From contig JAIPIT010000006.1 in NCBI GenBank assembly GCA_021734505.1, positions 1-49,262 of the forward strand: a stretch of DNA of 49,262 nt. Direction: 5' to 3'. A program made the translations under genes and the position numbers. Positions 2,307 through 41,830 of the stretch are shown in pieces (within the stretch, counting starts at the first letter, position 1; every line of letters begins with the position of its first letter). The DNA is from Fidelibacterota bacterium. GTDB lineage: Bacteria > Fidelibacterota > Fidelibacteria > Fidelibacterales > Fidelibacteraceae. Under the pieces are notes generated by a model. That model was not told where the DNA came from and made no database searches. It worked only from the letters and a program-made list of their open reading frames with translations.

Positions 2307-2423
2307 GACTTAAATATACAATAAAAACGTCAATAATCTATCCACAGATTACGCTGATTTTCGCAGATTATTTTTTAAAGATATTTATCTGTGCGAATCT
2401 GAGAAATCTGCGGATAGTAAAAA

Positions 2424-8918: not shown

Positions 8919-9540
8919 CGGCGCCGATGGCGCCGAAATATTAAAGATAAAAGGCAAAAGATTAAAGAAAGATTTAAGAATGCTCGCGGGTCATCCTGAA
9001 CTTGCTCGTCATGGCGAATCCGCCAGTCCCGCAGGGACTCCTATGGAGCCGGCGGAGTAGCATGGATTCAGGATCGGAGTAATTGGAATTCTCGAATAAT
9101 GAAATGATTTATATTACGTTTAATGTTCAACCCCTCCCATCTACGCCAAGGCTTCGATGCGCAGGCGGCAAACTCGGGGTTGATATGAAAAGTCGATAAT
9201 ATTATTATATTCTTGAACCCCTAACGGGGTTCTATTTTAAAGGGAAAGTACTAGCTATATTCTTCTTGAACCCTTGCAGGGTTCTATTCACTAAAAAAAC
9301 ATGCTTATGGATAAAAAGAAAAGGATCCCGCAGGGATCCAAGAAGAATATAGCCAAGAATCAAAAACCAAAACAACTCCGTAGGAGTTGAAGAAATTATA
9401 CTTCGATTATTTAAATGTCTTCTCTTCAATGCTTTGTCGTGCTATAAAATGAGACCCCGGAAAAATTTCTATGATATTTTTCCGGGATGACAATATATAT
9501 ATTGTTAATCTGGAGACGCGATAAATCGCGTTTTTACATC

Positions 9541-10164: not shown

Positions 10165-10256
10165 GGTGTGAATTTACAGGGATTATTTAATTTATAAAAG
10201 AATTTAATAATAACCGCAGATATCATAGATAACACTTTTTAATTAAGATAGGTATG

Positions 10257-10287
10257 AACCACAGATGTCGCAGATGTCACAGATAAT
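10257..10287 (+). repeat. Family A palindrome arm (left), flanking the GxxExxY gene
   Basis: AACCACAGATGTCGCAGATGTCACAGATAAT; 25/31 identical to the reverse complement of 10752-10782. Confidence 0.85.
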
Positions 10288-10292
10288 AGGTA

Positions 10293-10739
10293 TTAATTAT
10301 AAACAAATCGTTTGAATTGGAGTTTTTCAGCACCGAAATTTATTAATAAGGCTTTGTGAAGCCCCGATGCTTTTAAGTAATTTATTACCTGTGCTTCATC
10401 AATTTTGGATAGTTGCTTAACGGATTTTAATTCTGCAATTAGATTATTAAAGCATATAAAATCAGCTTTATAAAATGTTTTCAGTTTTTGATCTTTATAA
10501 TAGATATTTAGTTTTTCTTCTCTTTCATGTGGAATTTGATTACTTAATAGTTCCAATTCAAAAGCTTCTTGATAGACCGGCTCAAGGAAACCCGGTCCAA
10601 TTGCATTGTGAACCTCCATTGCCAAACCAATAATATTATAAGTATAGGGATCATTTTCTGATGAAGTGTGGTTTCGTTTTTTATACCATTCTTTGTTGCC
10701 GGAGTAAATATCTTTTAAACTTATATTTTCATCATCCAT
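10293..10739 (-). CDS. GxxExxY protein (PDDEXK_3-like)
   Basis: 148 aa; 'AMEVHNAIGPGFLEPVYQEAFELEL' (GxxExxY), 'ADFICFNNLIAELKSV' resembling the D-...-ExK core. Confidence 0.9.
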   Translation of the reverse strand: MDDENISLKDIYSGNKEWYKKRNHTSSENDPYTYNIIGLAMEVHNAIGPGFLEPVYQEAFELELLSNQIPHEREEKLNIYYKDQKLKTFYKADFICFNNLIAELKSVKQLSKIDEAQVINYLKASGLHKALLINFGAEKLQFKRFVYN

Positions 10740-10751
10740 TAAACTGCCTTT

Positions 10752-10782
10752 ATTATCTGTGCAATCAGTGTAATCTGTGGTT
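10752..10782 (-). repeat. Family A palindrome arm (right), flanking the GxxExxY gene
   Basis: ATTATCTGTGCAATCAGTGTAATCTGTGGTT; inverted relative to 10257-10287. Confidence 0.85.
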
Positions 10783-12498: not shown

Positions 12499-12678
12499 TT
12501 ACAGACAAAATATTTTCATAAAAGAAACAATCTGTGTGAATCTGCGTCTGCCGGGCGGTATCCACCAGCTGGCGGAGTAGGCTGGAAATCTGCGGATAGA
12601 ATTATCGAGGGTTTCTTCTTAAATTAAGGAAAGAATTTTATATTTTCAATTACTGAAAATTAGTTATGATGGTTGTCA

Positions 12679-14316
12679 CTAATACACAAAAGACGATCCG
12701 CCCAGAAATTCCTGTATAATGGACGTGGGTGGTATCAGCTCAGTGCTAAAGGGTACGAACAACTCCATGAGGTGGCAAAGTCGCTCGGCTTCAACTTTAA
12801 CGGGCGAATTGTCGGGAATGCCGGATAAGGTTTCGAGGAGGATTCCGGAGAAGACCGACCATTCATATTCCAATGCAGAGTTGAAATAAACGTCGGCATG
12901 CTCCTGATAAGGAAATATCCATTTGTCCTCACCGCAACGGACGGAGGGCCAACGTTTCAGGGTTTCTTCGGGAGAATGGCCTCTGAATTGAGAATCGCGA
13001 TACATTCTGCGCAACAGACGCGTATCGGATGTTGAAACACGATTATACAAATTGAAATTCAATTGGGTCAGGGCAGAAATATAAATTCTCAACTTGGTTT
13101 TATCCGGGATGGGATTCGCCAGTTCCGGGTTCAATCCGTGGATGCCCTCCAAAATGAGGATCTCGTCGTCATGTAGAAAGGTTTCGTTTTGTTCATATTC
13201 TTTATTACCTGCCTTAAAAAGAAAGTGCGGCAGATGAACGCCTTTGCCATTCATCAGCTCGATCAAATGCCGGTTTAGCAATTCGTGATCGATCGCATCA
13301 AAATGTTCAAAATCGTAATCGCCGTTTTCATCCACAGGGGTATACTCGCGATCGGCAAAATAATCATCGAGTGAAATAAGTTTCGGCTTTAGTCCGTTTA
13401 TGCGAAGCTGAAGAGACAAGCGCTTCATAAAGGTTGTTTTACCCGAAGCGGATGGTCCGGCAATAAACACAAAGCGCAACCCTTTTTCCCGGGTGATCAC
13501 ATCGGCGATCTCGGCAATCTTTTTTTCATGCAAAGCTTCATAAAGCTGGATCGCTTCCACTTCTTTTCCCTCAAGAGCACGCTCATTCAGATCGCTGACA
13601 TGACGAATGTCCAGCATGTTTCCGCGCATTTCAGATTCGCGGATGATCTTAAATAAATTGGGCGAAGGAATAAATGGCGGGATCATGTCCGGTGATGTGC
13701 GTATCGGGAATCCAAGCACAAAGCCTTTTTCATAAGGTGTTATTTTGAACTGCTTGATATAGCCGGCCGAGGGAACCAATGCGGACACAAACCAATGCGG
13801 AAATCCGCATAGATCATAAATACGCAATTGATGTTTGGGTGAGTTTTTTAATACATTGAATCTCTTAAGCTCGATCTGTTCCAATTCGGCATGAGTGATC
13901 ACGCGTTCCTCAAATTCATGATCGGATTGAACGTACTCAACCATTTTTGATTCGAGCAGATCGAGATAATTTTCAGGAAGTGTTTCAGGACTGACAGGCT
14001 CGCAGTAGAATCCCTTTCCCAGGGAATGTTCTACCGATATGCGTGTATCACGGAAGAGTCCTTCCGCCGCCATCAGCATAAGCGCGGTTGTACTAACGGC
14101 AAGACATTCTGAGCCGAGCGTATCATTGATATCATAAAAACAACAATGTGAAACGGTAGATGGAATTATATTATTTAAGCTCTGTAATTCAGTATCACAA
14201 GACATGCAGAGGATATGATCTGAATTATCAGGGAAATGTTCGCGGACAATATCTATTCCCCGAATATGATCGTTCTGCTCTATGGCGATTTGTTTGTTGT
14301 GGTATCTTATGATCAT
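12679..14316 (-). CDS. Nucleoside kinase (uridine kinase-like, with N-terminal TGS/ThrRS-like region)
   Basis: 545 aa; P-loop 'FIAGPSASGKTTFMKRLSLQL', 'ISLDDYFADREYTPVDENGDYDFEHFDAID', 'ILEGIHGLNPEL'. Confidence 0.88.
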   Translation of the reverse strand: MIIRYHNKQIAIEQNDHIRGIDIVREHFPDNSDHILCMSCDTELQSLNNIIPSTVSHCCFYDINDTLGSECLAVSTTALMLMAAEGLFRDTRISVEHSLGKGFYCEPVSPETLPENYLDLLESKMVEYVQSDHEFEERVITHAELEQIELKRFNVLKNSPKHQLRIYDLCGFPHWFVSALVPSAGYIKQFKITPYEKGFVLGFPIRTSPDMIPPFIPSPNLFKIIRESEMRGNMLDIRHVSDLNERALEGKEVEAIQLYEALHEKKIAEIADVITREKGLRFVFIAGPSASGKTTFMKRLSLQLRINGLKPKLISLDDYFADREYTPVDENGDYDFEHFDAIDHELLNRHLIELMNGKGVHLPHFLFKAGNKEYEQNETFLHDDEILILEGIHGLNPELANPIPDKTKLRIYISALTQLNFNLYNRVSTSDTRLLRRMYRDSQFRGHSPEETLKRWPSVRCGEDKWIFPYQEHADVYFNSALEYEWSVFSGILLETLSGIPDNSPVKVEAERLCHLMELFVPFSTELIPPTSIIQEFLGGSSFVY

Positions 14317-14469
14317 TGTGTTTATAATTCTACCTGCAGACTTCCAATCTTCTCCGCCGGCTGGCGGATTCGCCTCGGGGGAACGGATTTTCCCAGATTA
14401 ATACTTTATAACACAATCTATGTTAATCTGCGTAATCCGTGGATGTCTTTATCTATTGTATTTCATTAT

Positions 14470-19197: not shown

Positions 19198-19238
19198 CTG
19201 GTGACTGGTAACTAGAGACCGGTAAAACTTAAATGTAG

Positions 19239-19258
19239 GGAACAGGCATGCCTGTTCC
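19239..19258. repeat. Palindrome GGAACAGGCATGCCTGTTCC (copy 1), possible terminator between convergent genes
   Basis: Perfect 20-bp palindrome followed by TTTTTT; identical core at 39669-39688. Confidence 0.85.
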
Positions 19259-19385
19259 TTTTTTATATACGACAATAATTATTGTGTTGGAGTTCGGAGA
19301 CGAAGAGACGTAAAACAAAAGGACGTATTGCAATACGCCACTACTATCATCTTTATCCTGTTATCCTGTCAGGAAAAAAATCCCG

Positions 19386-39663: not shown

Positions 39664-39693
39664 AATACGGAACAGGCATGCCTGTTCCGTATT
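39664..39693. repeat. Palindrome AATACGGAACAGGCATGCCTGTTCCGTATT (copy 2)
   Basis: 30-nt perfect palindrome; 20-bp core identical to 19239-19258. Confidence 0.9.
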
Positions 39694-39720
39694 TATTTTA
39701 ATAATAATATTATTAACGGA

Positions 39721-41305: not shown

Positions 41306-41480
41306 TTAAATGCATGGTTCAAAATAAGTTAATCTTAAGAAAAAAACAAGAAAAAAAGAGTGAAAAATAAAAGAATTTAATGGTAGGTATATCATTTAGC
41401 TTTGTTGTTAAAAAATTACAGAACAAAGTTAATAAGCCCATAGGGGGGTGTTTCTTTATATTGGGGGGTGATAATAATTT

Positions 41481-41752
41481 CCCGTCTTCGCTAAAGCTAC
41501 GGAAACATGAATGATATGTAAGAATCAAAGATCCTCCTTCGCCAAGGCTACGGAGGCAAGTGTTATTTTTTTACGCTTTTATAATAGTAATTACCCGCCT
41601 TCGCTAAAGCTACGACGGGTATTATTTGAAAAATGAAACATTTTTCAAATAATAAAAAAACTTGCGGCTATTTGATGAACCCGTTTTACACGGTGGGTGC
41701 CTGCCGCTGGATTCAATCTTCCTTAACCCGCCGTAGCCTTGGCGAAGGTGGG
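41481..41752. repeat. Cluster of four family D palindromes between dnaA and the 6S-like RNA (the last one inside the RNA)
   Basis: CCCGTCTTCGCTAAAGCTACGGAAAC (41481), CCTCCTTCGCCAAGGCTACGGAGG (41533-41556), ACCCGCCTTCGCTAAAGCTACGACGGGT (41593-41620), CCCGCCGTAGCCTTGGCGAAGGTGGG (41727-41752). Confidence 0.85.
41620..41654. repeat. Perfect 16-bp-arm inverted repeat, 3-nt loop
   Basis: TATTATTTGAAAAATG-AAA-CATTTTTCAAATAATA. Confidence 0.9.
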
Positions 41753-41830
41753 AAGGCCTGATTTCCACCAACATTGAGCTGGGCTCCCTGTTAATCAATG
41801 TTGATTCAAAAAAATATATACCGCAAGTTT
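41658..41830 (-). ncRNA. ssrS: Probable 6S RNA
   Basis: Minus strand: AAACTTGCGG...(about 150 nt)...CCGCAAGTTTTTTT closing stem plus U-tract; GGGAGCC/GGCACCC stem, long imperfect apical arm, and 'GGCACCCACCGTGTAAAACGGGTTCATC' small hairpin reminiscent of the 6S 3' central-bubble strand. No ORF. Confidence 0.6.

Follow-up and report, generated by a model that had tools for sequence, protein, structure and literature searches.

A GxxExxY gene between inverted tandem-unit arms: a candidate minimal mobile element encoding a predicted nuclease

Results and Discussion

A GxxExxY gene lies between two inverted arms

The window (the whole 49,262-nt stretch of DNA analyzed here) belongs to a 1.98-Mb draft genome with two PF13366 genes. 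One of these lies in the window as part of an intergenic element, flanked by an acetyltransferase-like and a threonine-synthase-like gene. The features discussed below are as follows.

10212..10236 (approximate), plus strand: additional partial arm, external to the left one, giving the layout >>G<
10257..10287, plus strand: left arm, AAC and then units CACAGAT/CGCAGAT/CACAGAT spaced 9 nt apart
10293..10739, minus strand: GxxExxY gene, 148 aa, with a predicted PD-(D/E)XK (RecB/Cas4-like) fold
10752..10782, minus strand: right arm, matching the left one at 25/31 in inverted orientation
2338..2368, plus strand: solo palindrome without a gene, left arm; arm type as at the window gene
2387..2417, minus strand: right arm of that solo palindrome, partner of 2338..2368
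14383..14399, plus strand: weak, degenerate arm belonging to a decayed solo palindrome
14425..14441, minus strand: other arm of that decayed palindrome, less degenerate

A preliminary description of this DNA had reported the two 31-nt arms, matching at 25/31 in inverted orientation, with gaps of 5 nt to the stop codon and 12 nt to the start codon of the 148-aa gene; all of this was recovered, as was the third, partial arm in plus orientation. The full 31-nt pattern was found nowhere else in the window (0 expected from 100 dinucleotide shuffles), and its 15-nt core occurred 12 times against 0.93 expected. Across the genome, the CACAGATT core was present 22 times, compared with once for its reversed control. 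Mismatches between the two window arms fall mostly at the spacer letters between units, a pattern which would be expected of protein-binding sites. Two gene-free copies had also been claimed. The one at 2338-2368/2387-2417 is clear (inverted-repeat [IR] score 13.5). The one at about 14383-14455 stood only in part: its minus-strand arm is the core with two mismatches, but the inverted pair aligns over just 7 nt, and we rejected it as a good solo copy on account of its decay.

The second PF13366 gene of this genome, on contig C105, has arms of a different type, ACAGGAT. It is followed by about seven ACAGGAT-type repeats of ~32 nt in an array (L034:1-830), indicating that arms can expand into arrays. 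Another array, of ~97 nt, was seen at L072.

The window holds further repeats. A palindrome with TTGAACCCTTGCAGGGTTC occupies 9254-9353, and a related palindrome fills, in genome G016, the spacer that contains the solo ACAGATT palindrome in the window. A 55-nt inverted repeat (78%; 12551-12605 and 14324-14378) surrounds a uridine-kinase-like gene at 12679-14316. Two 90% identical GGAACAGGCATGCCTGTTCC palindromes with a T-rich tail, at 19236-19266 and 39666-39696, are probably terminators or another repeat family. Finally, a cluster of CTTCGCCAAGGCTACGG-type inverted repeats at 41471-41761 represents a further dispersed family.

The encoded protein is a predicted RecB/Cas4-like nuclease

Profile searches assigned the window protein to TIGR04256 (GxxExxY; 139 bits, cut-off 35) and PF13366 (PDDEXK_3; 129 bits, cut-off 22). 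These were the only matches above cut-off, with neither a tyrosine (HUH/Y1) nor a DDE transposase in the unit. The conserved residues of the family are present as G50, E53, Y56, D93, E103, K105, Q117, and Y121, the last five of which are near-universal (kept in 106 to 109 of 110 proteins). D, ExK, and QxxxY are motifs of the RecB family. The median dN/dS of GxxExxY proteins was 0.11, which indicates purifying selection; together with the near-universal D/ExK/QxxxY residues, this value suggests that enzymatic function is being maintained.

The predicted structure (mean pLDDT 85) most closely matched Cas4 SSO0001 (4ic1; E = 5e-4), followed by lambda exonuclease and RecE, at a TM score of ~0.5 that implies a shared fold class and not close kinship. 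Weaker matches included a Holliday-junction resolvase and the catalytic domain of the homing nuclease I-Bth0305I. Fold and residues both point to a RecB/Cas4-like PD-(D/E)XK enzyme, and we treat the protein as a predicted nuclease of that kind. Genes for PF13366 proteins occur in 107 of 245 genomes from the phylum, with up to 17 copies per genome.

Inverted arms accompany GxxExxY genes in general

We collected GxxExxY loci from the phylum of the window and from Bacteroidetes, Verrucomicrobia, Chloroflexi, Ignavibacteria, and Hydrogenedentes, although most tests concern one phylum and draft MAGs. In a motif-free IR test, the 120-nt upstream flank of each gene was aligned with the reverse complement of its downstream flank. 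Scores of at least 13 were reached by 45% of 109 GxxExxY genes and by 3 to 4% of 345 to 413 neighboring ORFs; the true number of genes is slightly below 109, since a few of the retrieved loci overlap and cover one place (e.g. L095/L132, L096/L108, and L154/L190). At a score of at least 10, the proportions were 71% of the 109 genes, 9 to 10% of neighboring ORFs, and 6% of shuffled flanks. The two arms of an element also belong together: same-element pairs matched at a score of at least 12 in 50% of cases, compared with 5.5% for arms taken from different elements.

A typical arm reads AACC and then some three 7-nt units (CRCNRAK) spaced 8 to 9 nt apart. A motif scan with these units, whose regular expression (unlike the IR test) came from the same data, found arms on both sides of 62/105 GxxExxY loci and 8/221 control ORFs, and no recognizable unit arms at 23/105 of the genes. 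The enrichment over adjacent genes that the preliminary description had predicted was therefore present, and arms were not equally common around unrelated genes. The commonest layout was >G<, and the >>G< of the window locus recurred at 5/105 other loci. The last letter of the unit (T or G) was identical on both sides at 51/54 loci. At some loci, entire palindromes are directly repeated on both sides (P-gene-P), and L066 is a gene-containing tandem, P-gene-P-gene-P, with two near-identical gene copies.

Two parts of the original description need qualification. ACAGATT arms are real, but they are one type among several (CACAGAT, CACAGAG, CACGAAG, CACGAAT, and ACAGGAT). The arms are indeed inverted, but their matching portions are the unit motifs and not a paired stem.

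S23/IVP genes share the layout

The S23/IVP four-helix-bundle genes (PF05635) are unrelated to GxxExxY, yet they have a common arm-gene-arm layout: 26 of 29 were enclosed by inverted arms of ~7-nt units with an IR score of at least 10, compared with 9% of their neighbors. Their unit varies from locus to locus (e.g. GTGACGC, AGTTTGGA, and GAGTAAT; L154:3841-4224 and L167-L196), and the genome of the window has 12 such genes. Beside a leuB-like gene, one genus has an S23 gene (L184) and another has GxxExxY elements (L087, L120, and L140) at the same intergenic site, suggesting a shared insertion hotspot.

This parallel raises the idea of an RNA-level element similar to 23S rRNA intervening sequences, in which base pairing between the transcribed arms would form a hairpin, cut by RNase III, with the gene in its loop. 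S23/IVP, which does have the matching layout, is a family encoded in rRNA intervening sequences (PMC4990558). A stem preserved in RNA is argued against by the arm mismatches, since G:U and A:C types on the gene strand were balanced for GxxExxY (43 vs. 46) and S23 (16 vs. 19) alike, and selection for an RNA hairpin was rejected on these counts. The elements also sit in intergenic DNA, and solo palindromes are scattered. We consider the RNA-level explanation highly improbable.

Arm type co-segregates with protein clade

Mapping arm type (T, G, or ACAGGAT) onto the GxxExxY protein tree, which was built on few columns, required six changes. When labels were shuffled only within genera, the mean was 22.3 changes and the minimum 16 (300 shuffles). 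Arm type thus co-segregates with protein clade. This within-genus result rules out species phylogeny as the source of the clustering and shows that same-genus paralogues with unlike arms sit in different protein clades, which span genera.

Palindromes track the gene and its arm type across genomes

Genome-wide palindrome counts, which include the arms of the GxxExxY genes themselves, showed 2.87 CRCAGAG pairs per Mb in genomes with PF13366 and 0.14 in those without; for CACAGAT pairs, the densities were 1.24 and 0.24 per Mb. The association with PF13366 persisted under within-genus permutation (P = 0.0002), and overall, matching palindromes were 5 to 20 times denser in GxxExxY-bearing genomes. 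The totals are mostly gene-free copies, reaching 130 in a genome with four genes. The preliminary description had held that abundant solo copies in genomes lacking the gene would count against it; in fact, just 3 to 5 of 138 such genomes had at least three matches.

Density also followed arm type. CACAGAT sites reached their highest density in genomes with an identified GAT-armed gene (4.3 vs. 0.34 per Mb, P = 0.005), and CRCAGAG sites in those with an identified GAG-armed gene (2.3 vs. 1.1 per Mb, P = 0.0009), and the type-specific density ratio was significant (P = 0.001). Within the genus of the window, CACAGAT-type sites numbered 10 in the window's own genome (G000), 6 in G014, 3 in G015, and 9 in G016, and were near-absent (0 to 1) in G009 to G013 and G017. 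The ACAGGAT type occurs throughout this genus and is concentrated in it, and the genus carries the corresponding gene clade.

Nine genomes with GxxExxY and without S23 had few palindromes, so S23 or lineage may matter. S23 was rejected as the sole predictor, as GxxExxY still matters within genomes that have S23 and within those that do not.

These distributions bear on passive co-inheritance, in which separate MITE- or REP-like palindromes spread by other means, the GxxExxY gene is cargo or an old insertion, and the match in type results from linkage. Palindromes far outnumber genes in some genomes (130 CRCAGAG matches to 4 genes in G238), S23 genes are also armed, and G001, which is 65% complete, has 17 CACAGAT matches and no GxxExxY gene found, all of which would fit such an account. 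However, density is predicted by whether a genome has the gene and by the arm type of that gene, within genera too, and gene-free genomes with several matches are rare. Strong purifying selection acts on the gene, its active site is intact, and no gene besides S23 was repeatedly found enclosed. Passive co-inheritance is thus an unlikely, though not negligible, explanation.

The unit is gained, lost, and copied whole

Comparison of orthologous loci provided examples of gain and loss. The window site is filled with gene and arms in G000, G014, and G015. In four sister genomes (G009, G012, G013, and G017) it is empty, with the neighbors close together and neither gene nor arms between them. The comparison with gene-free orthologous loci, as first proposed, might have revealed a remaining palindrome or a clean junction; here, the arms are absent too. 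In G013, the corresponding spacer likewise lacks the solo palindrome at 2338-2417.

In genus g83, the site beside the leuB-like gene has a more layered history. It holds a GxxExxY gene with T-type arms in G228, G236, and G241; G-type arms beside a T-type remnant in G235 and G238; a decayed gene within G-type arms in G232; and a half-arm remnant in G231. The T- and G-armed genes at this site belong to different protein clades.

Duplicates delimit the unit. G221 has two copies at two loci that are 96.5% identical over 512 bp and whose similarity stops on the right where the terminal inverted repeat ends, and homology between two 91% identical copies in G084 spans arm to arm. Filled and empty sites and these duplicates together support the earlier suggestion that arm-gene-arm behaves as one unit.

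Target-site duplications of at least 5 nt were found for 7% of elements and 4% of shuffled pairs, which is no clear signal. No clear transposition signature thus emerges, and an ordinary DDE transposon becomes less probable. Phage origin and plasmid-borne spread were considered and rejected: tblastn gave no match in 50,697 phage records, with two loci in IMG/VR, and only 8 of 72,556 plasmid records had the gene, all of them predicted to be non-mobilizable.

The same observations weigh on the notion that the arms are regulatory binding sites of the host or of the gene itself (autoregulation or a regulon) and not mobile ends. Tandem units with free positions do resemble protein-binding arrays, and the solo palindromes examined were all intergenic. 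Nevertheless, empty sites lack arms, duplicates end at the arms, and a solo palindrome can be present or absent between related species. A purely regulatory role appears very doubtful.

Proposed mechanism and significance

Taken jointly, we consider it likely that arm-gene-arm' (~525 bp) forms an autonomous minimal mobile element whose candidate nuclease recognizes and spreads its own arms. The GxxExxY protein, probably dimeric when bound to the inverted arms, would recognize the tandem CRCNRAK units that characterize its own arm type, and may cut or resect DNA at palindromes or their cruciforms. Repair copying could then spread either the arms alone, producing solo palindromes, or the entire arm-gene-arm' unit, and new copies might often land at or beside existing palindromes. 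Because empty sites lack arms, the homing target, if any, would be other palindromes.

The preliminary description had regarded the palindrome as the substrate or target of a nuclease that mobilizes or homes it. Gain, loss, and copying of the unit as a block, the association of arms with the gene, and the tracking of gene and type by palindromes lend that idea partial support. The layout is not unique to GxxExxY, as S23/IVP demonstrates.

We lean, with some reserve, towards a broader interpretation: a widespread and previously undescribed class of elements built around a RecB/Cas4-like PD-(D/E)XK nuclease that recognizes and spreads tandem-unit inverted arms and co-evolves with them, filling genomes with palindromes, while the S23/IVP elements with 7-nt units form a parallel or cooperating class. 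The class is apparently undescribed. No link between GxxExxY and arms or repeats was found in the literature searched, which was mostly without subscription papers, making novelty provisional; the published mentions, PMC8934634 among them (GxxExxY in a survey of reverse transcriptases and in the genome of an algal virus, PF13366 in one paper), likewise contained no repeat link that we found.

These results offer a candidate function for a large family of predicted nucleases of unknown function, and a candidate driver for dispersed intergenic repeats of the CACAGAG, CACGAAG, CACAGATT, and ACAGGAT types. Co-specificity predicts that each GxxExxY clade binds its own arm type. The S23/IVP parallel also bears on the role of the rRNA intervening-sequence protein.

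Comparison with known systems

Cas4, lambda exonuclease, and RecB share the D, ExK, and QxxxY pattern with the GxxExxY protein and are its best PDB fold matches, but GxxExxY is a stand-alone protein of 120 to 150 aa, with no adjacent CRISPR or recombinase partner seen. I-Ssp6803I is a PD-(D/E)XK homing endonuclease. In such systems the nuclease gene likewise interrupts or borders its proposed target; GxxExxY differs in lying outside any intron or intein, and its proposed target is a multi-copy palindrome instead of a unique gene site (homing endonucleases are reviewed in PMC3943268). Unlike DDE insertion sequences and MITEs, the window unit involves no DDE transposase.

The S23/IVP ORF is encoded in 23S rRNA intervening sequences that are bordered by complementary ends (PMC4990558). 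The likeness lies in a small ORF between complementary ends, and the free-standing S23 copies found here are also between inverted arms. GxxExxY, however, is an unrelated protein under purifying selection, is not in rRNA, and shows no G:U bias.

TAACTGA heptamers are dispersed intergenic tandem direct repeats of 7-nt units, whose author weighs a repeat-binding protein as the mobile part and makes no mention of S23 or a four-helix protein (PMC4679880). The dispersed tandem 7-nt units are similar (compare the S23 arms), but they are direct and not inverted.

The closest parallel in layout is provided by RAYT genes, described as invariably lying between two inverted REPs, with dispersed copies in addition (PMC2817692). 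Both systems place a small gene between two inverted palindromic repeats in intergenic DNA, with many gene-free copies per genome and with repeats and proteins that group together in trees, and RAYTs are relatives of IS200/IS605, which lack larger target-site duplications. In contrast, RAYTs are tyrosine (HUH-type) enzymes, whereas the window protein is predicted to be PD-(D/E)XK, and each window arm is an array of tandem units, the two arms together making the palindrome. The GxxExxY elements would therefore extend the REP/RAYT principle, a palindrome with its own enzyme, to an unrelated enzyme fold.
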